Position numbers and translations under genes: made by a program. Below, piece by piece: positions 7,715 through 59,396 of a stretch of DNA of 64,000 bases (the stretch's first letter is position 1; every line of letters starts with the position of its first letter). The notes below the pieces were generated by a model that worked only from the letters and a program-made list of their open reading frames with translations, made no database searches and was not told the origin of the DNA. The stretch comes from Methanolobus sp. Its GTDB lineage: Archaea > Halobacteriota > Methanosarcinia > Methanosarcinales > Methanosarcinaceae. The stretch covers positions 1-64,000 of the forward strand of contig NZ_JAUXNK010000092.1 of NCBI RefSeq assembly GCF_030682845.1, given 5' to 3'.

Positions 7715-7922
7715 TAAATCTATATATGATGAATAGCAACTATTCAATCATATATTCGATAAGTAGTGTATAGAAATGAGGCGTAGTGTGGAAATAATAG
7801 GAAAGGCAGCACTTTCTTTTTGCTACGTGCATGTAGACAGGAGTATTGTGGTAAAGTATCAGTCTTATTTAGGCAGAGGTATATTTTCAGCTTAAGCTGA
7901 ATTCATTTGGGGAAACAAGTGC

Positions 7923-8258
7923 ATGAAAATTCCAGAGCAGATATCCAGGGAAATAAAATTGAGTGGCGGGATAGATAAGATTATTGAAAAATTGCCTGAT
8001 GAAAATCGAATCGTAAAGCAGAGCCTAATATACGATGCTCTTTCATCTCCCCTTAGACTTAAGATATTGAGTCTGCTCTCAATACAACCACTTTGTGCCT
8101 GCATCATTCAGAAAATAACGAAAACCTCTCCATCAAAGCTCTCTTACCATCTTTCAATATTAACTAACAATAATCTAATTGAAGGCAAGAAGGAAGCATC
8201 GTGGATAACATACAGCATTACAGAATTAGGACAGAAATATGTATTTCCAAACTTGTGA
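7923..8258 (+). CDS. ArsR-family winged-helix regulator
   Basis: YDALSSPLRLKILSLLSIQPLCACIIQKITKTSPSKLSYHLSILTNNNLI. Confidence 0.85.
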   Translation: MKIPEQISREIKLSGGIDKIIEKLPDENRIVKQSLIYDALSSPLRLKILSLLSIQPLCACIIQKITKTSPSKLSYHLSILTNNNLIEGKKEASWITYSITELGQKYVFPNL

Positions 8259-35196: not shown

Positions 35197-35379
35197 ATGA
35201 TAGTTAACGGCGTGAAGAAAGAAATAAGATCAATTGCTTATAGTCCTCAGCATGGCTATCTGTCACAGGATTACCTGGGAGGCAGGCGCACATCTCATGA
35301 AACGATATACTCGATGATGTTCAAAACAATCGACTGCATTTTAGATGATCACTACGGACCAAGACTCAAGAGGAAATAA
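35197..35379 (+). CDS. Small hypothetical protein coupled to the FilR1 regulator by a TAATG overlap
   Basis: 60-aa ORF whose TAA overlaps the ATG of the next gene. Confidence 0.35.
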   Translation: MIVNGVKKEIRSIAYSPQHGYLSQDYLGGRRTSHETIYSMMFKTIDCILDDHYGPRLKRK

Positions 35380-36161
35380 TGAAAACAGAGCTAATAAGTA
35401 CAGTGTTCCTCTCAGAAAAAAGAAAGAACACTCTCCTCATGTTGATGGAGCGGCCGGCCACCATAGATGAGATTAAGGATTCCCTCACAGGAACCACCAG
35501 TGCAATAATGGCTCAGATGAAGATCCTTCTTGAGCAGGGTCTCATTGAACAGTCAGCTGATGAATACAGCCTGACATATATAGGGAAGATCATATTACGA
35601 AAGATAAAGCCCCTGATGGAAGCGCTGAATGTCCTTGAGGAGAATAAGGAATACTGGGAAAGCAGGGATATGAGCGCTATACCTGATCCACTACTGGACA
35701 GGATTGGCGACCTTGGGCAGATAATGGTATATCAGCCTGATCTCAACCATCTTTTTGAGCCACCGACAGCATTGCTTACGAGTTTAAGGCAATCTTCATC
35801 AGTATGCACATTCTATTCGTATTTCTGTCCAAGTTGCCCTATGAATTATTCCGAACTGGCAAAAAAAGAAGTAAATTTCAATTTGATGTTGACCAGGTCT
35901 GTATACAATAGGTTGAAAGATGAATATACGGAACAGTATAATGCCATGATGGATTCTCCAAGTTCCAATATGTTCATATGTGAAGATAACACGATTCGTC
36001 TGGGCGCTCTCTCTATAACGGATAATCTCATGCTGATTGCCTTTTTCAACAAACAGGGGATTTTCGATCACAAAAAAGTCATCACTTTTGAGAACAGTGC
36101 ACGTCAGTGGGGATTGGACCTTTTTGAGCAATACAAGCAAACCGCTGAAAAAGTTAAATGA
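35379..36161 (+). CDS. Helix-turn-helix FilR1-domain regulator (Msr-like)
   Basis: MKTELISTVFLSEKRKNTLLMLMERPATIDEIKDSLTGTTSAIMAQMKIL; close paralog of 56263-57045. Confidence 0.85.
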   Translation: MKTELISTVFLSEKRKNTLLMLMERPATIDEIKDSLTGTTSAIMAQMKILLEQGLIEQSADEYSLTYIGKIILRKIKPLMEALNVLEENKEYWESRDMSAIPDPLLDRIGDLGQIMVYQPDLNHLFEPPTALLTSLRQSSSVCTFYSYFCPSCPMNYSELAKKEVNFNLMLTRSVYNRLKDEYTEQYNAMMDSPSSNMFICEDNTIRLGALSITDNLMLIAFFNKQGIFDHKKVITFENSARQWGLDLFEQYKQTAEKVK

Positions 36162-36341: not shown

Positions 36342-36462
36342 AGGTGTTAATTTTTTTCCTGCCGGGGTTTTCCTGAATGCTTTAGATTAAGAATATGCTC
36401 TCGGTAAAAACTACAATTCAAACCTTGAACAGGCAATTGATAATAATAATGGCATTGACTAA

Positions 36463-36641: not shown

Positions 36642-37754
36642 ATGCCAGCACAAGATTATATCCCAATAGATCAAAATTGGCTAGGAAATGCAGGAAAGTT
36701 ATGGACTACTCCATGGGTGGACAAGCCATCGGATAGAGTTATCGTGGACCCTATTATACTGTCACACGCAGCCACTCTATTCAGAAAGAACGCAGGGTAC
36801 TTCTATTCGAATCCTGATGAAGCAGTAAGGATGGTTTGTGCCGCCTGTGAACTCTACGATGTCACTCCGGTTGGTCACTACCTTTATGCAGATTACTGGG
36901 GAGCCGACTACGGAGCTGAAATAAAGATTCAGACAAATGCTCCACCAGGTATCACAAACCGCCCGATAAAGACTGCTGAAGATGTCGATAAGTTTGAAGT
37001 GCTGAGCACAGAAGAACTGGTCAAAGGCCCGACCCTTGCGACACACTACAAAGCACTTGACACAGTGAAGAATGAATATCCACAGATGTTCGCCCCTATC
37101 ACTCAGCTGGGTGGTACCATGGAAGTAGCTACCAACTGGGCTTCAATTGAAGATGTATTCATGTGGATGATCACAGAACCTGAACTTGTCGACAAGCTAT
37201 GTATAAAGGCCGGAGACCACATGGTCAATGCCTGCAGAGCAACAGCCGAGAGGTATGGAGCAAACGTCATGATCACCGGTTCAGTAATAGCAAGCGGTGA
37301 CCTCATGGACAGGGAACAGATCAAGAGGTTCAGTTACCAGCCCGTATCCAGAGCTGTCAGGAAAGTCCTGAGCGCAGGCGCAGGTCCGGGTGTCTATTAC
37401 CACCTCTGTGGAAACCACACCGACGACTTCGACCTGTGGAAAGATGCACCAATGAGCCCGTTCACCATTGTCCAGATAGGATATGACGGACAGAAAATAT
37501 TCCCGACATCAAAGCTGGTAGAAAACTTCGGAGACAGGTGCACATGCTTTGGAACTGTTGATACAAAGCTGGTTGACCGCGGTACACCTGCACAGGTCTA
37601 TGCACAGGCCAAGGAACAGGTCCTTGCCGGTAAGGACAGCCCAAGAGGTTTCATCCTGGGAACTGCATGCGAATGCCCAACCAACGCTCCACCTGTGAAC
37701 GTCCATGCACTTGTAAGGGCAGCAAAGGATTTCGGAAAGTATGAGAAGTTCTGA
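36642..37754 (+). CDS. Uroporphyrinogen-decarboxylase (URO-D) family methyltransferase
   Basis: MtaA/CmuA-like fold; putative zinc-site HLCGN and [10 protein letters not shown]. Confidence 0.85.
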
Positions 37755-37798
37755 GAAAGGGGATGAACAACAACAGTACAAAATAATGAGGGTTTCTT

Positions 37799-38260
37799 AT
37801 GGATATAAAGATAACTGAACAAGTGGACAATTTATTGAAGGACAACGGCGTGAGGAAAGAGGAGATCCTGGACATAATCAAGAAGGCTGAATCCAGCGGT
37901 CAAAAACTCAAGTCAAAGGATGGAAACACCTGTATTGCAAAGGGTGCATCCGAGAACCTGACCATCTACGCTGTTTATTCTGCAACTGAACTGCTTGATG
38001 TCTACGCCCACAAAATGAACATCCTCGGAATCACCGGCGGAGAGATCAAGCCAGTGGAGTACGATGATGCAAGTGACTGGATATGTGCAAAGTGCGGAGA
38101 GGTCGCACTGGAGAGGAATGTTGACATGAGCTACCTGGGAGTCACCAGGCCAGGCCCTGGTCTCGTCTGTGCCAAATGCGGCGAAATGTATGTCTCAGCC
38201 GGCATGGCAAAGTCAACACTCAAAACAGCAGAAGCGATCCTTGAAGAAAAAAGAGCTTAA
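37799..38260 (+). CDS. DVU_1557-like redox protein, two CxxC knuckles
   Basis: WICAKCGEVALERNVDMSYLGVTRPGPGLVCAKCGEMYVSAGMAKSTLKTAEAILEEKRA. Confidence 0.7.
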   Translation: MDIKITEQVDNLLKDNGVRKEEILDIIKKAESSGQKLKSKDGNTCIAKGASENLTIYAVYSATELLDVYAHKMNILGITGGEIKPVEYDDASDWICAKCGEVALERNVDMSYLGVTRPGPGLVCAKCGEMYVSAGMAKSTLKTAEAILEEKRA

Positions 38261-38322
38261 GAATACCTGAGAATCAGAGGGATTCTCGGGTAGATTACCA
38301 CCACCAACCAGAGAGGGAACAG

Positions 38323-39765
38323 ATGGAACCGATAAGCACAGTAGAAAGCCTTTGTCCGGAGTGCCTTGGAAAAATAGGCGGCATCAAGTATGCAGAGAAC
38401 GGACAAGTCTACATAAAGAAGGAGTGCCCTGACCATGGTAGTTTTACAACCCTTATATCTGAAGATATAGGTCACTACCGACAAATGGAGGAATGTTTCG
38501 AGGTCAATAGGTCACGTGCCAGGGCATCTTTAACTGATGTGGAAAAAGGCTGCCCCTTCGACTGCGGCCTCTGTCCCTCTCATAAACAGGATACCTGCCT
38601 GGCAGTGGTGGAAGTAACAGACAGGTGCGACATGGGATGTGCTTATTGTTTCGCCAGTTCTTCAATGGATAAGAGCCTTGACCCCGATATGGACACAATA
38701 AGGTTCATGTTCGAAACAGTAAAGAAATGCCAGAACAAACCAACCTGCATACAGATCTCGGGAGGAGAACCAACTCTGCGGGATGACCTGCCTGAGATAA
38801 TAAGGATGGGAAAGGAAGTAGGCATCGATCACATAGAATTAAATACCAATGGTCGCAGAATCGCCAGCGACCAGGATTATTTTGATAAGATCGCCTCAGC
38901 AGGTATAGATGCTATCTATCTTGGATTTGATGGCGTATCCGATGATATTTATATAAAAAGGACCGGAAAGAAGCTCTTTGACATAAAGGCCGAGGTCATC
39001 AACAGATGTGAGAAGGCCGGCATCGGCGTTGTTCTTGTGCCTCTTGTGGCTAAGAACTATAACCTGCACGAAGTCGGCAGGATCATAGAGTTTGCAGGCA
39101 GCAGGGTCCCGACCGTAAGAGGCGTGCACTTCCAGCCTGTATTCTATTCCGGCCGTGCACCTTCAGGTCGTGAAGGAAGGATTACCATTCTCGAACTTCT
39201 CCGGGAGGTCGAGAAGCAGACCAAGGGGCAGCTTAAGGTTGAGAATTTCACACCTTCACTGATGCCTCATGCCCATTGCGGAGCAACCTGCCTGACAGTC
39301 ATTGACAGCAATGGCTTCCTGCCACTGACCAATGTCTCACTGGGAGCACTCAAATCCGCTTCTGATGTAGCAAGCAAAACAAAGAAGTCTATCATGGGCA
39401 GGTGGAGAGGTTCTGAGAAGGATGCTCAGAAGTCCTCATGCGGCGATCTGCTTATTAAAAGCTCATGCTGCGAGAAGCCTATAAGCCAGCTGACAGTGAA
39501 AGGCTCATGCTGTGAAAAGCCGATCACTGATGTCCTTCCACAGAACTCCCTTCTGGGCGGGGGATGGGCGGACTTTATTGAGATGAGCAAGAACAGCTAT
39601 CTCACTATCTCAACAATGGCATTCCAGGACGTCTGGTCATACGAGAAAGAAAGAGTGGAGAACTGCTGCATACATGTGGTGACACGTGATGGGAGGTTTG
39701 TTCCCTTCTGCAACTACAATATGACCGATTGTGACGGCAAGTTCCTTTACAGGAATGCCGCTTAA
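38323..39765 (+). CDS. Radical SAM protein, TrsS-like
   Basis: EVTDRCDMGCAYCFASSS (CxxxCxxC); N-terminal CPECLGKIGGIKYAENGQVYIKKECPDHG; Cys-pair insertion SSCCEKPISQLTVKGSCCEKPITDV. Confidence 0.8.
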   Translation: MEPISTVESLCPECLGKIGGIKYAENGQVYIKKECPDHGSFTTLISEDIGHYRQMEECFEVNRSRARASLTDVEKGCPFDCGLCPSHKQDTCLAVVEVTDRCDMGCAYCFASSSMDKSLDPDMDTIRFMFETVKKCQNKPTCIQISGGEPTLRDDLPEIIRMGKEVGIDHIELNTNGRRIASDQDYFDKIASAGIDAIYLGFDGVSDDIYIKRTGKKLFDIKAEVINRCEKAGIGVVLVPLVAKNYNLHEVGRIIEFAGSRVPTVRGVHFQPVFYSGRAPSGREGRITILELLREVEKQTKGQLKVENFTPSLMPHAHCGATCLTVIDSNGFLPLTNVSLGALKSASDVASKTKKSIMGRWRGSEKDAQKSSCGDLLIKSSCCEKPISQLTVKGSCCEKPITDVLPQNSLLGGGWADFIEMSKNSYLTISTMAFQDVWSYEKERVENCCIHVVTRDGRFVPFCNYNMTDCDGKFLYRNAA

Positions 39766-39804
39766 TCATTACTTTTTATTTCTGAGGAAAACAGGAGGCG
39801 TAAC

Positions 39805-40941
39805 ATGAGTCTTTCTGCAAAGATCAATACTGCTGTTCGGATGACTATAGCAAAAAGGAAACTGGAGTCCCGGAAAATAGAAGACGGGACCGGGAATCCT
39901 CTTGAGCAATGGGGCCTGGCCAAGATAAGGAATGACGTGAAGAACAACAGGGAGCTGAAAGAGTTCTTTGGCCAGAGGGAACTTGACAGGGATTACATCA
40001 ATGAGTACAAGCTCATAAAGTTCAGGCAACTGATGGCGTATGTACTGGAGAACAGTCCCTATTATAAAGAGATTTACGAAAAAGCAGGTATCGATCCTTC
40101 TCAGATCACCGGATATGAGGACCTGGAGAAACTGCCACTGACCGAGCAGCAACTGTTAGCTGAGCATCCGTATCATTTCCTTTGCGTATCAAGAAAGGAG
40201 ATAGCCAGGGAGTTTACAAGTTCCGGTACCACCAACATGCTCAAGAGGATGGCATATACCCAGGACGAACTGCTGGAAATTGTTGATTCGGTCATCTCAG
40301 GCCTGAAAATGGCAGGAATGAATTCTAAAGAAGATACATTGCAGATAATGTATCCCACCATAACAGCCACCTGGGACCCCGGTCTTGTCCTCAGTAAGGC
40401 CTGTGCCCTTGCCGGTTATAAATCGGTCATTAATGATTCCCTGGATGTGGACGATCAGTTAAGGACCATGAGGGAGTCAGGGACGACTCTTATCATTGGG
40501 ACATCATCCTTCCTGCATGACCTGTCAAAGGCCGTCCGTGAGCTTATAAAGCCCGGAGAAATGGGAATAAAAACCATTATCTGCTCATCCGAACCCCTGA
40601 CGCCTTCCATGAGGGAGGAAATAGAGAGCGTATGGGGCTGCAAGACCCTGAGGCAGTGGGGCATGACAGAACTGGGGCTGGCCAATGCAATCGAATGCTC
40701 TGAGCAGGATGGTTTCCATCTCAACAACCCGGATTTCCTGGTTGAGGTCATTGATCCAAAAACCGGAAAACAGCTACCTCCCGGTGAGGAAGGAGAGCTT
40801 GTCGTCACAACTCTGCGGAGAAGGTGCATGCCTCTTATCCGTTACAGGACAAGGGACATCACAGCTCTCATTGACGAGCCGTGCAATTGTGGCGCCTGCT
40901 TTGACCAGCGAATAAGTGATATAAAGAGAATGAACTCCTGA
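39805..40941 (+). CDS. AMP-dependent CoA ligase (phenylacetate-CoA-ligase-like; DVU_1553 type)
   Basis: FTSSGTTNMLKRMAYT; RQWGMTELGLANAIEC; GEEGELVVTTLRRRCMPLIRYRTRD. Confidence 0.82.
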   Translation: MSLSAKINTAVRMTIAKRKLESRKIEDGTGNPLEQWGLAKIRNDVKNNRELKEFFGQRELDRDYINEYKLIKFRQLMAYVLENSPYYKEIYEKAGIDPSQITGYEDLEKLPLTEQQLLAEHPYHFLCVSRKEIAREFTSSGTTNMLKRMAYTQDELLEIVDSVISGLKMAGMNSKEDTLQIMYPTITATWDPGLVLSKACALAGYKSVINDSLDVDDQLRTMRESGTTLIIGTSSFLHDLSKAVRELIKPGEMGIKTIICSSEPLTPSMREEIESVWGCKTLRQWGMTELGLANAIECSEQDGFHLNNPDFLVEVIDPKTGKQLPPGEEGELVVTTLRRRCMPLIRYRTRDITALIDEPCNCGACFDQRISDIKRMNS

Positions 40942-41066
40942 GGGCTCATATCTCAAGGGAGGGACTCCGGTTCCTTTCTTAGTCTTTCTTTCAGAAACGG
41001 ATGTTATGAACATTTATCCCAGGGACGGTTCTTACCGTTCTGATGCTCTTTTATGGAAGTGATGCA

Positions 41067-41747
41067 ATGAACCAGAGAGGACCGGATATAGATAAAGGAG
41101 CCCTGAGCAGGCAACAGCAACATTGGGAGTGCGTATTTTCAAGCAATGATTCTATGTTTGGCGAGGACCCCAGCAGTCCGGCCCGGTGGGCAGCCCGGCT
41201 GTTGAAGGAAGAAGGCAAGACAAAAGTCCTTGAGCTTGGTTTTGGACAGGGAAGAGATACCCTGTATTTTGCAAGGAATGGTTTTGATGTAACTGCTCTT
41301 GACTATTGCGAAAAAGGAATCAAATCCCTGAGGGAGAAAGCCAGTGAGTCCTCAGTATCAGGTTCTGTAACTCCCATGCAGCATGATGTCAGGAACAGAC
41401 TGCCTTTTAAGGATGACACATTCGATGCGTGCTATTCTCATATGCTTTACTGTATGCCCCTGACAATTTCGGAATTACGCTCACTTTCAACAGAGGTCAT
41501 GAGGGTCCTTAAGCCCGGAGGACTGAACATATTCACCACAAGACATACAGAGGACCCCCAGTACGGGACCGGTATCCACAGAGGTGAGGATATGTGGGAG
41601 ATACAGGGAGGATTCATCGTGCATTTCCTGAGCAGGGAAAAGGTGGACCTTCTCTCGGAAGGCCATGATGTATTGGATGTTACGGAATTTCAAGAAGGCG
41701 ACCTGCCTAAGAAACTGTATCGTGTAACTCTGAGAAAAAAGAGCTGA
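41067..41747 (+). CDS. SAM-dependent class I methyltransferase (DVU_1556/TrsM-like)
   Basis: KVLELGFGQGRDTLYFARNGFDVTALDYCEKGI; start assigned to ATG 41067 (MNQRGP). Confidence 0.82.
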   Translation: MNQRGPDIDKGALSRQQQHWECVFSSNDSMFGEDPSSPARWAARLLKEEGKTKVLELGFGQGRDTLYFARNGFDVTALDYCEKGIKSLREKASESSVSGSVTPMQHDVRNRLPFKDDTFDACYSHMLYCMPLTISELRSLSTEVMRVLKPGGLNIFTTRHTEDPQYGTGIHRGEDMWEIQGGFIVHFLSREKVDLLSEGHDVLDVTEFQEGDLPKKLYRVTLRKKS

Positions 41748-43779: not shown

Positions 43780-44570
43780 CAGTCAGTAACTGGAAAATGG
43801 ACTATATAGGATTTGTTCTTCCAGCATTGATATTTACCGCATGGTATCTTGTGACTCTGGAGGGAGGAGTACCGGCATATCTTATTCCCTCACCATCGAA
43901 CCTGGTTCGCGTGGCAGTTGATTTTGCTACCGGGCATGCGAATCTCACACCTTATGCAGGGACACTGTTAGTACATACCCTTGCCAGCGTTCAAAGAGTG
44001 GCGATGGGTTTTGGTCTGGCTGTTGCTGTGGGACTTCCCCTGGGTTTTCTGACAGGGCGCATGTCCCTTGCAAAGAACTCTCTTGACCCAACTGTACATC
44101 TCATCCGTATCATCCCCGGCATTGGGTGGTTACCCATAGCCATAGTATGGTTTGGCGTGGGGGAGAATACAACCCTGTTTCTCATATCACTGGCAGCCTT
44201 TTTCCCGATATATGTGAATGCAGCCCAGGGAGCCTCTTCAGTACCTCCTTTACTCATCCGTGCAGGGAGGATGCTGGGTGCCAATAAGCTGATGATATTC
44301 ACTACGGTAATCATACCAGCATCCATGCCTTCCACTTTGGCCGGACTACGGCTGGGTTTGGGCATTTCCTGGGCCTATCTTGTACTGGGTGAGCTTACAG
44401 GTGTGACATGTGGACTGGGTGCGGTTATGATGGATGCCCGGATGCTGGGGCACGTAGAGATGATCCTGGTCTCTATGATATTCATAGGATTGTTTGGCCG
44501 CATCAGCGATATGATACTCGTAGGTTCTTTTAAAAGGCTGGACCTGCTAAGGGAGGAGAACAAAGAATGA
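43776..44570 (+). CDS. ABC transporter permease, SsuC/TauC-like
   Basis: HLIRIIPGIGWLPIAIVWFGVGENTTLFLISLAAFFPIYVN (EAA loop region). Confidence 0.9.
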   Translation: MTVSNWKMDYIGFVLPALIFTAWYLVTLEGGVPAYLIPSPSNLVRVAVDFATGHANLTPYAGTLLVHTLASVQRVAMGFGLAVAVGLPLGFLTGRMSLAKNSLDPTVHLIRIIPGIGWLPIAIVWFGVGENTTLFLISLAAFFPIYVNAAQGASSVPPLLIRAGRMLGANKLMIFTTVIIPASMPSTLAGLRLGLGISWAYLVLGELTGVTCGLGAVMMDARMLGHVEMILVSMIFIGLFGRISDMILVGSFKRLDLLREENKE

Positions 44571-55429: not shown

Positions 55430-55620
55430 TGTAATATTCCTTTTGTCCTCATTTTTGAGCAGAGCAGTATAATACATAAAGATATCCTGTATGTCAAATT
55501 CATAGCTTGAACATAGAATATGCCATTGATAATCTCCGTATCATTGATTGCTTGTAGTAAGTTGTTATATATATTCTGTAAATAATGGTAAAACGTAGTC
55601 ATTTTATGAGGTGTAGATAA

Positions 55621-55965
55621 GTGCCCGAAAGAGAAAACAGATATGCTGATGATTTATCCCGCGATGACAGGTACTCTTTTGAACTGCAGAGAAGAGGGGT
55701 TAACAAACAGTTCTATGATGCGAACAGGATGCTCCTCTGTCCTGAATGCGGCCAGTCGTTCAGTCTCTTTTACTCACGGGCAAAGTATTGCGCTGACTGC
55801 CCGAGCCTGGCAAGGGGCTGTGAACTTGCCCGCTGTACTCACTGTCACACGGAGTTCCCTCTCAACAATTTCATGTCTAAGACATCCTCACGAACTACTT
55901 CCAACTATATCGGATCTGTAGTAAAGCGGTATAATAATACCTTTGGAGAGCGACCCGGCAGATAA
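55621..55965 (+). CDS. Zinc-ribbon hypothetical protein (GTG start)
   Basis: LLCPECGQSFSLFYSRAKYCADCPSLARGCELARCTHCHTEFPLN. Confidence 0.65.
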   Translation: MPERENRYADDLSRDDRYSFELQRRGVNKQFYDANRMLLCPECGQSFSLFYSRAKYCADCPSLARGCELARCTHCHTEFPLNNFMSKTSSRTTSNYIGSVVKRYNNTFGERPGR

Positions 55966-56262: not shown

Positions 56263-57045
56263 ATGAAAGCCGAATTGATCAGCACGGTGTTCCTATCGGA
56301 AAAAAGGAAGAACACTCTTCTTATGTTAATGGATAAACCGGCAACCATCGACGAAATAAAAGATTCCCTCACAGGAACCACCAGTGCAATAATGGCCCAG
56401 GTAAAGATACTTATTGAACAGGGTCTTATTGAACAGAAGTCCGACGAATACCGGCTGACCTACATCGGCAGGATCATCCTGAAAAAAACAAAGCCTCTTA
56501 TAGAGGCACTTAGTGTGCTTGAGGAAAATAAAGAATACTGGGAAAGCAGGGATATGTGTGCCATTCCCGAGGATCTTCTTGACAGGATTGGAGAACTGGG
56601 GAAAGTAATAGTTCACGAATCGGACCTGAACCATCTTTTCGAACCACCTAAAGAATTATGCCTGAGCCTGAAGCAGTCGGTGAAAGTGTCTACGTTCTAT
56701 TCTTATTTCTGTCCTACCTGTCCTTATAATTATGCTGAACTTTCCAGAAAAGAAGTGAATTTTGATCTGATACTGACAAGATCCGTATATACGCGGTTAA
56801 AAGAAGAATATACTGATCAATATAATGCAATGATGGAATCCCACAACTCAAATCTTTTTGTATGTAATGATGACGCGATAAGGCTGGGAGCTCTTTCGAT
56901 CACGGATAACATGATGCTGCTTTCTTTCTTTAATACCCAGAGGATATTCGACCATAAAAAACTGCTCTGCTTTGATGAAAGTGCCCGTCTCTGGGGAAAA
57001 GATCTATTTGCACACTACAAACAAATGGCAGAGAAGGTTAAATAA
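56263..57045 (+). CDS. Helix-turn-helix FilR1-domain regulator (Msr-like)
   Basis: Close paralog of 35379-36161. Confidence 0.87.
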   Translation: MKAELISTVFLSEKRKNTLLMLMDKPATIDEIKDSLTGTTSAIMAQVKILIEQGLIEQKSDEYRLTYIGRIILKKTKPLIEALSVLEENKEYWESRDMCAIPEDLLDRIGELGKVIVHESDLNHLFEPPKELCLSLKQSVKVSTFYSYFCPTCPYNYAELSRKEVNFDLILTRSVYTRLKEEYTDQYNAMMESHNSNLFVCNDDAIRLGALSITDNMMLLSFFNTQRIFDHKKLLCFDESARLWGKDLFAHYKQMAEKVK

Positions 57046-57106
57046 AGAACCTATATTGCGCCTTTACTCTCATCCCTCTGCATTAAGTCATTTCTGATTC
57101 ATGACA

Positions 57107-57119
57107 TTGATTTTATCAA
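57107..57119. promoter_or_regulatory. Palindrome TTGAT-TTT-ATCAA in a conserved upstream block
   Basis: TTCATGACATTGATTTTATCAAAGGTGTTTATTCC resembles the 36320 block. Confidence 0.65.
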
Positions 57120-57240
57120 AGGTGTTTATTCCCCAGTGACCGCTGTTTTCTGGCTTCTGCTGAATCCTGAATGTACCATGTGTATAATCTATAATTGGGC
57201 AGGATGACACCTGTTTGATAATACATACGCGGTTGTTAAA

Positions 57241-57264
57241 TTACCATAAGTTATTATTTATATC
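57241..57264 (+). promoter_or_regulatory. Shared promoter box TTACCATAAGTTATTATTTATATC
   Basis: Same box as 36463 and 51671-51694; no plus-strand ORF follows closely. Confidence 0.65.
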
Positions 57265-57274
57265 TATATGTTAA

Positions 57275-57480
57275 TAGCGTGATTGCTCAATAAGGGCATG
57301 AAGTAGTTTGCAGAAAAAAATTTCACTAAACTGGGTCGATCCAGCCTACCTCCATCATACAATGTGAATTGCACTTCCCTAACATTTCTGCTTGACTGCG
57401 TGATTGTATCATGCAGTACTACTTCGGATTTGCAAGGCCCGTCTCCACAATCTAAAGGGCCTTGCAAACCAGTATTCTAA
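57275..57480 (+). ncRNA. Candidate small RNA with two strong hairpins; ends approximate
   Basis: Downstream of the shared promoter box; hairpins ACTGCGTGAT-TGT-ATCATGCAGT (57395-57417) and perfect 12-bp TTTGCAAGGCCC..GGGCCTTGCAAA (57429-57468). Confidence 0.5.
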
Positions 57481-57539
57481 GTGTTTGTATAATTATTGTA
57501 AACTTTGTTCTGATTCTCCTGCCGATAAAATCAACAGCT

Positions 57540-57552
57540 TTGATTTTATCAA
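57540..57552. promoter_or_regulatory. Palindrome TTGAT-TTT-ATCAA upstream of ramA
   Basis: Also part of the longer inverted repeat GATAAAATCAA-CAGCT-TTGATTTTATC. Confidence 0.65.
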
Positions 57553-57636
57553 CCCTGTCAATTTGGAGTTAACGCCGTTAAAATCAACTGCATTAATTTC
57601 GCCATCATTATTGATAATATCGTAACCTCGGCTTTA

Positions 57637-57660
57637 TTACTTGAAGTTATTATTTATACC
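57637..57660 (+). promoter_or_regulatory. Shared promoter box TTACTTGAAGTTATTATTTATACC upstream of ramA
   Basis: Same box as at 36463 and 57241. Confidence 0.65.
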
Positions 57661-57752
57661 TTAATAACAGATTGTTTTCATACAGCATTGCACAGTCTGA
57701 CGGACTAAGCGGTTTTTCAGACATTTCAATAAAGTAATACGGAGGACATCTT

Positions 57753-59396
57753 ATGTATGGTATTGCAATAGATCTGGGCACCAGTGGTTTTCGGTTGCAA
57801 CTAATAGACCTTGAATCAAGAAGCATCCTTAAGACTATAATGACGATGAAGCATCCTCTTCCAGGAGGAAATGTTATCGATCATCTTGGTTTTGCCATCC
57901 AGGTAGGTGGAGATGTTGCAAATAAAATAATGGTCCATACACTTCAAAAGATGTTTGATATGCTCCCCGTTTCTCCCGAGGAGATCAGAAAAATCGCTGT
58001 GTGCGGTAACCCTATACAGCTTTCCCTTTTCCAGAACATCGAAATACGCGACCTTGCGTATGCCGGCAAGAACATGCAACAAAGGCTTGGTATAGGTGAA
58101 GTGAAAAGGGGTATGAAGATCTATGATGGTATTGAGATCTTTGGAAAATCCTCCGGGCTTGATGTGTGCGATCTGATCGTACTGCCATCCATCGAACATG
58201 AGATCGGGGCAGATGCCCTTGCAATGATGGTCAAGACTGATTTCATGAAGCAGGATGGCATATCCCTTGTAACTGATTATGGCACGAATGCTGAAATGGC
58301 ACTCAAGGTCAATGGCCGGATAATTACCTGCAGTGCTGCAGCAGGCCCGGCTATAGAAGGACAGGGCATAAAATGTGGGATGCTTGCAAGCCCCGGCGCA
58401 ATATCTGATGTTAACGAAGAGAACGGCATGTGGAGGATCACTGTGCTGGATGAACGCATGGACAGCAGAAAAAGCCATCTTATCGACCCTCTGACAGGTG
58501 TCATCTTTGAGAATGGCGAATTGTCCCCTCTGGGCATTACAGGAACGGGTGTCATTTCTGCTATATCTCTTGCAATGAGCATGGGTCTGATAAAGACACT
58601 GCCGCATCTTCCAAATGGTAAACTTATACTTGGGGAAGGGGTTGAGCTCAGCGACAAGGACATCGAGGAAGCCGGAAAGGCTATTGGTGCCATAAGGGCG
58701 GCGCATCTGACGCTGCTGGTGGAAGCTGGACTGAAATTCGAGGACCTGGAATACATGTATATGTCCGGTGCTTCAGGTACGTATGTGGATGCCGACAAAG
58801 CAAGGAAGATAGGCCTCGCACCCAGATTTGTAAAAAAGATAGTTCAGTTCGGGAACACATCGCTTGAACTTGCAAAAGATGTGGTGCTCGGAAACTATGA
58901 ACTTCAGGAAATACAGGAGCTTGCAGACAGGATAAAAGCAGATCACATTATGCTGGCCTCAAATGAAACCTTTAAGAACATCTATGCATGCGAGCTTGCA
59001 TACTGGACTGAAGGCATGCCTGAAGAAGTATATGACAGTGTCCTTGAGTCCTATAATATGCCCCGTATGCCATCTTTGGAGATTGCTCCATTGTTGCAGA
59101 GGAGGGTCAAAAAGGATATCTCAAGCTCAGAATCCGGAGGCATCGAAATAATGCAGGAAATGGACACAGTCATTGAGGAACAATCATTCGGATGCATGGG
59201 ATGTAAGATATGTGAAAGAGAGTGTCCAGAGAGTGCGATCAAAATAACCAGTAAGAATGGAAGTGTGTATGCAGGATACATGGCTCATCTTTGCCTGGGC
59301 ATGAGTTGCAAGAGATGCATCAGGATATGCCCGGCCAAAGCTATCCATTACAGGGATATAAGGCCTGTTTCCAGTCAGGATCTGTCTGTCATTTGA
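57753..59396 (+). CDS. ramA: Methylamine methyltransferase corrinoid protein reductive activase (RamA-like)
   Basis: ASKHA/DUF4445 core (AIDLGTSGFRLQLIDLE, TDYGTNAEMAL) and C-terminal 2x[4Fe-4S] (CMGCKICERECPESAI; CKRCIRICPAKAI). Confidence 0.93.
   Translation: MYGIAIDLGTSGFRLQLIDLESRSILKTIMTMKHPLPGGNVIDHLGFAIQVGGDVANKIMVHTLQKMFDMLPVSPEEIRKIAVCGNPIQLSLFQNIEIRDLAYAGKNMQQRLGIGEVKRGMKIYDGIEIFGKSSGLDVCDLIVLPSIEHEIGADALAMMVKTDFMKQDGISLVTDYGTNAEMALKVNGRIITCSAAAGPAIEGQGIKCGMLASPGAISDVNEENGMWRITVLDERMDSRKSHLIDPLTGVIFENGELSPLGITGTGVISAISLAMSMGLIKTLPHLPNGKLILGEGVELSDKDIEEAGKAIGAIRAAHLTLLVEAGLKFEDLEYMYMSGASGTYVDADKARKIGLAPRFVKKIVQFGNTSLELAKDVVLGNYELQEIQELADRIKADHIMLASNETFKNIYACELAYWTEGMPEEVYDSVLESYNMPRMPSLEIAPLLQRRVKKDISSSESGGIEIMQEMDTVIEEQSFGCMGCKICERECPESAIKITSKNGSVYAGYMAHLCLGMSCKRCIRICPAKAIHYRDIRPVSSQDLSVI

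Follow-up and report, generated by a model that had tools for sequence, protein, structure and literature searches.

Introduction

In Methanosarcina mazei, the small RNA sRNA162 masks a ribosome-binding site and start codon with an exposed linker, and has been tied to the switch between methanol and methylamines (PMC3510493). RNA-A, the Methanolobus RNA described here, resembles sRNA162 and its homolog sRNA171 in its length of about 190-200 nt and in lying beside the gene of a transcription factor that governs methyltransferases (for sRNA162, PMC3510493). sRNA162 differs, however, in targeting the regulator MM2441 and the cis gene MM2442 rather than mtaC, and in being antisense to its neighbour, whereas RNA-A shares its strand with FilR1 and ramA. 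Moreover, the Methanolobus RNAs comprise three scaffolds with one predicted target. As to homology with sRNA162, a search of Methanosarcina with R1, our covariance model of RNA-A, gave no convincing match in sequence or structure; weak R1 matches at Methanosarcina FilR1 loci were rejected as AT-rich noise without the core motif. By analogy, sRNA162 is the nearest functional parallel of RNA-A, and no test made identifies it as a homolog.

Two further M. mazei RNAs share features with RNA-A. The intergenic sRNA41 is also reported to mask ribosome-binding sites, but its target is the ACDS operon, and sRNA154 carries a loop with an anti-RBS sequence, yet acts in nitrogen regulation and on other targets (PMC5867862). 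In bacteria, sibling small RNAs such as LhrC and Qrr are encoded by several genes, with a common motif and common mRNAs. The Methanolobus siblings differ from these in being archaeal, in their unrelated scaffolds and loci, and in that one of them lies in the 3' region of the operon of its target's isozyme. In addition, 195 small RNAs have been reported from M. psychrophilus by dRNA-seq, and the same study cites a cold-adaptive methanogen with long mtaC leaders (PMC5378194). The RNA family described here is without Rfam match and is assigned by inference, without expression or binding data, to the archaeal type of RBS-masking small RNA.

Results

A conserved RNA structure between FilR1 and ramA

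The window, a stretch of 64,000 nt of Methanolobus sp. DNA (contig NZ_JAUXNK010000092.1), contains two complete promoter-like units between the FilR1-type regulator gene and ramA (Table 1). The original prediction had proposed two copies of a promoter with its upstream palindrome, and no plausible plus-strand gene after the first. Both claims held: the palindrome TTGATTTTATCAA is repeated exactly, TTATTATTTATA stands at 57251-57262 and 57647-57658, and just two short ORFs, neither with a Pfam match, lie between the two copies. The second copy, said to be complete, is present before ramA, but it is the weaker match to our promoter matrix. Of the two hairpins that had been pointed out, the 12-bp one is perfectly paired, as claimed, and the 10-bp one is present with one G-U pair; both fall inside well-folding sequence downstream of the first promoter. 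The proposed RNA extent of about 57275-57480 is refined to 57276-57472, and since this is the conserved RNA, the transcript probably starts near 57275.

Table 1. Features of the FilR1-ramA interval, in window positions.
Feature	Position	Strand	Remarks
FilR1-type regulator gene	56263-57045	+	Pfam FilR1_middle, 108 bits; adjoins RNA-A also in the other genus
Upstream palindrome TTGATTTTATCAA, copy 1	57107-57119		exact match; possible regulator site
RNA-A promoter box	57206-57265	+	GATAATA, BRE-like ATTACC, TATA TTATTATTTATAT; matrix score 47.4
Short ORF between promoter copies	57264-57467	-	67 aa; no Pfam match
RNA-A, putative structured non-coding RNA (R1 span)	57276-57472	+	about 200 nt; 147.9 bits in the window
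Closing helix P1	57300-57426	+	GAAGTAG (~57300-57306) with CTACTTC (~57420-57426); MFE structure
Core motif GGGTCGATCCAGCCTACCTCC	57333-57353	+	conserved pattern; predicted partner mtaC1 Shine-Dalgarno and codons 3-5
10-bp hairpin	57395-57417	+	in fold; close species form the same hairpin from different bases
Short ORF between promoter copies	57404-57625	+	73 aa; no Pfam match
Terminal 12-bp hairpin	57429-57468	+	7/12 pairs changed on both sides
Terminal hairpin loop GTCTCCACAATCTAAA	57441-57456	+	contains invariant UCUCCACA
Palindrome copy 2, upstream of ramA	57540-57552		exact match
ramA promoter box	57602-57661	+	matrix score 30.4
ramA, corrinoid reductive activase	57753-59396	+	NCBIfam TIGR04270, 732 bits

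The RNA-A region folds far better than shuffled sequence (z = -5.3, with 0/200 shuffles as good), and comparison with three close species reveals blocks of conservation, stems built from different bases, and indels whose lengths are not divisible by three. The element lies upstream of ramA orthologs (66-73% identity) in 12 further Methanolobus genomes. The covariance search that had been suggested for related genomes was run with R1 and recovered 16 Methanolobus loci together with one in another genus of the same family; the order FilR1-RNA-ramA is constant in all of them, and the organism names at the related loci are Methanolobus. Within Methanolobus, RNA-A is restricted to part of the genus. 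It should be noted that counts over related genomes are not independent and that many of these are metagenome assemblies.

In the 16-sequence alignment, both-side changes affect 19 of the 27 pairs in three helices (5/7 in the counterpart of P1), with a shuffled mean of 7.9; the observed value was reached in none of 500 shuffles, and slid controls gave 2-11. The RNA-A region contains no reading frame shared by all 16 genomes, the open frames not corresponding to one another, and an Rfam search of the region at gathering and relaxed thresholds yielded only chance matches and no family. Two invariant motifs are unpaired, GGGUC...CUACYUCC and the hairpin loop UCUCCACA; the mean unpaired probability of CTACYTCC is 0.71, and part of GGGUC can enter a weak 4-bp hairpin. 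We consider it very likely that 57276-57472 (+) encodes a small regulatory RNA, a conclusion that rests on computation only and in which transcription is inferred.

At one locus (L030, genome G019) an extra CTACCTCC directly follows the terminal hairpin of RNA-A on its 3' side. Upstream of a 68% identical ramA in Methanohalophilus sp. RSK (L059) there is no RNA-A match, and GTGGAGGTAGAC occurs on the ramA strand.

A predicted promoter of the methyltransferase type

The predicted promoter of RNA-A is of the type used by methyltransferase genes, as shown computationally by a matrix match. Trained solely on promoters of methyltransferase genes in other genomes, the matrix selects five window sites: those of RNA-A (57206) and ramA (57602), and 36428 (+), 51670 (-) and 55517 (+). 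Site 55517 scores 35.1, and the values 51.8 and 48.8 belong to the other two of these last three. After these, the best score in the window is 0.7, and the reversed window does not exceed -5.2. Site 36428 precedes a URO-D methyltransferase gene and site 51670 corrinoid/MtbA genes. The RNA-A promoter region matched other loci in the genus, whose promoters alone went into the matrix; most of these loci are followed by a corrinoid protein gene and then an MtbA-like gene, or by a gene for a URO-D family methyltransferase. All 16 RNA-A loci have a TATA element, which in the 12 further genomes stands about 25 nt upstream of the presumed start. The ramA promoter in 12 other genomes is unlike the box (scores -15 to 10).

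Among four close species, mean identity falls from 0.80 in the promoter box and 0.76 in the RNA to 0.46 just past the terminal hairpin, and recovers to 0.77 in the ramA promoter; the 57106-57205 region shows 70% identity among four species. A uniform U-tract (T-run) after the terminal hairpin, as in an intrinsic terminator, was not found in the aligned genomes, leaving the 3' end without this mark. In the absence of expression data, we regard RNA-A as probably a separate transcription unit. Comparison (structure, lack of a frame, promoter and drop in conservation) thus supports the methyltransferase-co-regulated small RNA that was originally proposed, with transcription inferred.

Complementarity to the start region and leader of mtaC1

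RNA-A exposes a sequence complementary to the ribosome-binding site of a trans-encoded mRNA; this is shown by computation, with binding and repression inferred. The best candidate predicted by our model, mtaC1, encodes the methanol corrinoid protein (NF040655, 445 bits, cutoff 420) and fits the target class foreseen originally, methyltransferase and corrinoid mRNAs. It was reached by searching for SD-like complements (GGAGGTAG) near start codons in related genomes, and this search was not blind. The mtaC1 start region in 24 genomes reads GGAGGTAGAAT(T)AGATGGAT(A/G)TAGACCC, the GGAGGTAG site and TAGACCC being identical across all 24 genes. RNA-A and two sibling RNAs described below, RNA-B and RNA-C, are all complementary to the mtaC1 Shine-Dalgarno sequence and codons 3-5. 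RNA-A matches GGAGGUAG(A) and (AU)AGACCC, RNA-B the SD, UAGAU and GACCC, and RNA-C the SD, the start codon (CCAUC with GAUGG) and GACCC. The predicted RNA-A contact, for which there are no binding data, places CUACCUCC opposite GGAGGUAG.

Mean duplex energies of the three RNAs with mtaC1 are about -29.1, -30.1 and -36.5 kcal/mol, with other gene starts near -15 kcal/mol. The core duplex of the window RNA-A amounts to -29.4 kcal/mol, and RNA-A core values range from -24 to -32 kcal/mol in 15/15 testable genomes. Compared with 73 SD-bearing starts, mtaC1 pairs better than all of them in nearly every genome, and in the two exceptions 1/73 pairs as well; this background consists of those 73 starts and not of the whole genome, and the energies take no account of folding in either RNA. 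When only the SD was preserved and the remainder of the site was shuffled, the observed value was reached in 33/4500, 22/3900 and 9/6600 cases (RNA-A first).

RNA-A and RNA-C are also complementary to an invariant UUGUGGAGA in the mtaC1 leader. TGTGGAGA, the complement of the RNA-A loop UCUCCACA, is present at -118 to -137 in 24/24 leaders, and a TATA element lies upstream of it, mostly near -205. The predicted pair of UCUCCACA with UGUGGAGA, likewise without binding data, was found independently of the SD-core match. In RNA-C, CACAAU or CACAAC mostly changes along with AUUGUG or GUUGUG in the leader (AAU-AUU, AAC-GUU); this co-variation follows clades and possibly reflects few events.

Early tests on ramA, filR1 and regulon genes showed no own-versus-swapped signal for ramA as a target and a mild one for the corrinoid gene, and pairing with the filR1 start is weak (-11.5 kcal/mol). 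In the window's own genome, the SD motif GGAGGTAG near ATG is hardly above control (19 vs 13). The start region of mtaC2, which lies upstream of RNA-C, pairs less well than that of mtaC1 (-16.8 to -23.4 kcal/mol). As a separate observation, a conserved GGAGGTAG SD also occurs, in G000 (the window's own genome) and G016, at starts of genes for CheC, an EamA-type transporter and Yip1 (L136, L139, L144, L292, L309, L310), which are possible secondary targets.

Predicted sibling RNAs

The core GGGTC-N-CTACYTCC recurs in RNA-B. This RNA measures about 115 nt and is flanked by a gene encoding topoisomerase-type zinc ribbons and by a nitroreductase gene in convergent orientation. A diverged copy lies beside a nitroreductase gene in the window's own genome (G000:C1 ~43792-43918; locus L126: 893-1019); it carries both CTACCTCC and TCTCCACA, and its GGUUGGGUCU lengthens the mtaC1 pairing (-37.5 kcal/mol). 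A small ORF starting from ATGGGTC of RNA-B was considered and rejected, as a one-base gap breaks the frame in one genome. RNA-C presents CTACCTCC and CTCCACA in a hairpin loop 120-192 nt past the mtaB stop codon (range measured at 21 loci), its neighbour being MtaB by NCBIfam (808.6 bits, cutoff 720). The three RNAs carry common motifs on otherwise unrelated scaffolds, and the C-rich motif is mostly unpaired in the siblings as well (RNA-B 0.88, RNA-C 0.98). Additionally, the RNA-C hairpin is found in the window's own genome at G000:C33 ~7908-7924 (-), downstream of mtaB in the 3' region of an mtaCB operon, and its exact motif in more than 20 Methanolobus genomes.

Discussion

Structure, conservation, promoter class and complementarity are shown here by computation. 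Our preferred reading, which we hold to be likely, is that RNA-A is a stand-alone, trans-acting small RNA that masks initiation on mtaC1; transcription, binding and repression are inferred. According to this model, induction of the alternative methyltransferase regulon (corrinoid protein/MtbA operon, URO-D type methyltransferase) would lead to RNA-A being made from the common promoter. Its CUACYUCC would pair with the mtaC1 Shine-Dalgarno GGAGGUAG and its GGGUC with codons 3-5 (UAGACCC), bridging the start codon, and its loop UCUCCACA would contact the invariant UUGUGGAGA about 125 nt upstream in the leader. Because this pairing would block mtaC1 initiation, methanol use would be lowered when other methyltransferases are induced. 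RNA-B and RNA-C would direct the same motif against the same mtaC1 site, and RNA-C may link expression of the second MtaCB isozyme to repression of the first.

A bolder reading, toward which we lean only slightly, is that Methanolobus has a small-RNA network of several loci, in which three unrelated scaffolds converge on mtaC1, with two-site pairing by RNA-A and RNA-C, and that the choice of substrate and of MtaCB isozyme is set post-transcriptionally. Known targets are scarce among archaeal small RNAs, and for this family a target is predicted, the pairing sites are exact and natural variants exist. The model could plausibly explain the ranking of competing methyl substrates by methylotrophic methanogens, and makes post-transcriptional control of methanol methanogenesis directly testable.

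Several other explanations deserve consideration. The segment 57276-57472 could be a long structured 5' leader of ramA, a cis element or riboswitch read through from the first promoter, and in favour of this the element is always upstream of ramA on the same strand and is strongly structured. Nevertheless, such a leader should be contiguous with its gene and without a separate gene promoter, which is not met here: ramA has its own conserved promoter and RBS, and the spacer that separates it from RNA-A is variable (257-386 nt) and poorly conserved directly after the hairpin. Furthermore, two other RNAs contain the core motif, RNA-B, with a convergent gene in front of it, and RNA-C, downstream of mtaB, and no Rfam family matches. 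We therefore consider this explanation unlikely. That a small protein is encoded in the RNA-A region, as the overlapping ORFs of 67 (-) and 73 (+) codons might suggest, is practically ruled out by indels between close species that are not multiples of three, by the lack of a frame common to the 16 genomes and by the absence of a Pfam match.

Two further alternatives accept the complementarity and read it differently. RNA-A, RNA-B and RNA-C may bind mtaC1 and yet activate or stabilise it, for instance if they open up an inhibitory leader or cover an RNase site. The contact with a leader site far upstream would agree with this, and stabilisation of some mRNAs has been reported for M. mazei sRNA154 (PMC5867862). 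The main contact, however, covers the Shine-Dalgarno and start region, and for M. mazei sRNA162 such a contact has been proposed to block translation (PMC3510493), so that activation seems improbable. Even less credible is the idea that the common motif binds one protein or ribosome component, the RNAs being mutual decoys and the mtaC1 match an anti-SD side effect. The same short motifs in three unrelated scaffolds speak for it, but the complementarity runs well beyond the SD, taking in codons 3-5 and the leader site, and some changes in one partner are matched in the other.

Other regulon boxes in the window

The box at 36428 is preceded by a second FilR1 gene at 35379-36158 (+), 75% identical to the copy at 56263 and just upstream of the box-controlled URO-D methyltransferase gene (36642). 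Behind this box, 36642-41747 (+) holds genes for the URO-D methyltransferase, a TrsS-like radical SAM protein, a DVU_1553-like ligase and an MduS-like methyltransferase. The strong box at 55517-55576 (+) stands before an ORF (55621-55965) for a small Zn-ribbon-like protein of 114 aa, possibly an unknown member of the methyltransferase regulon.
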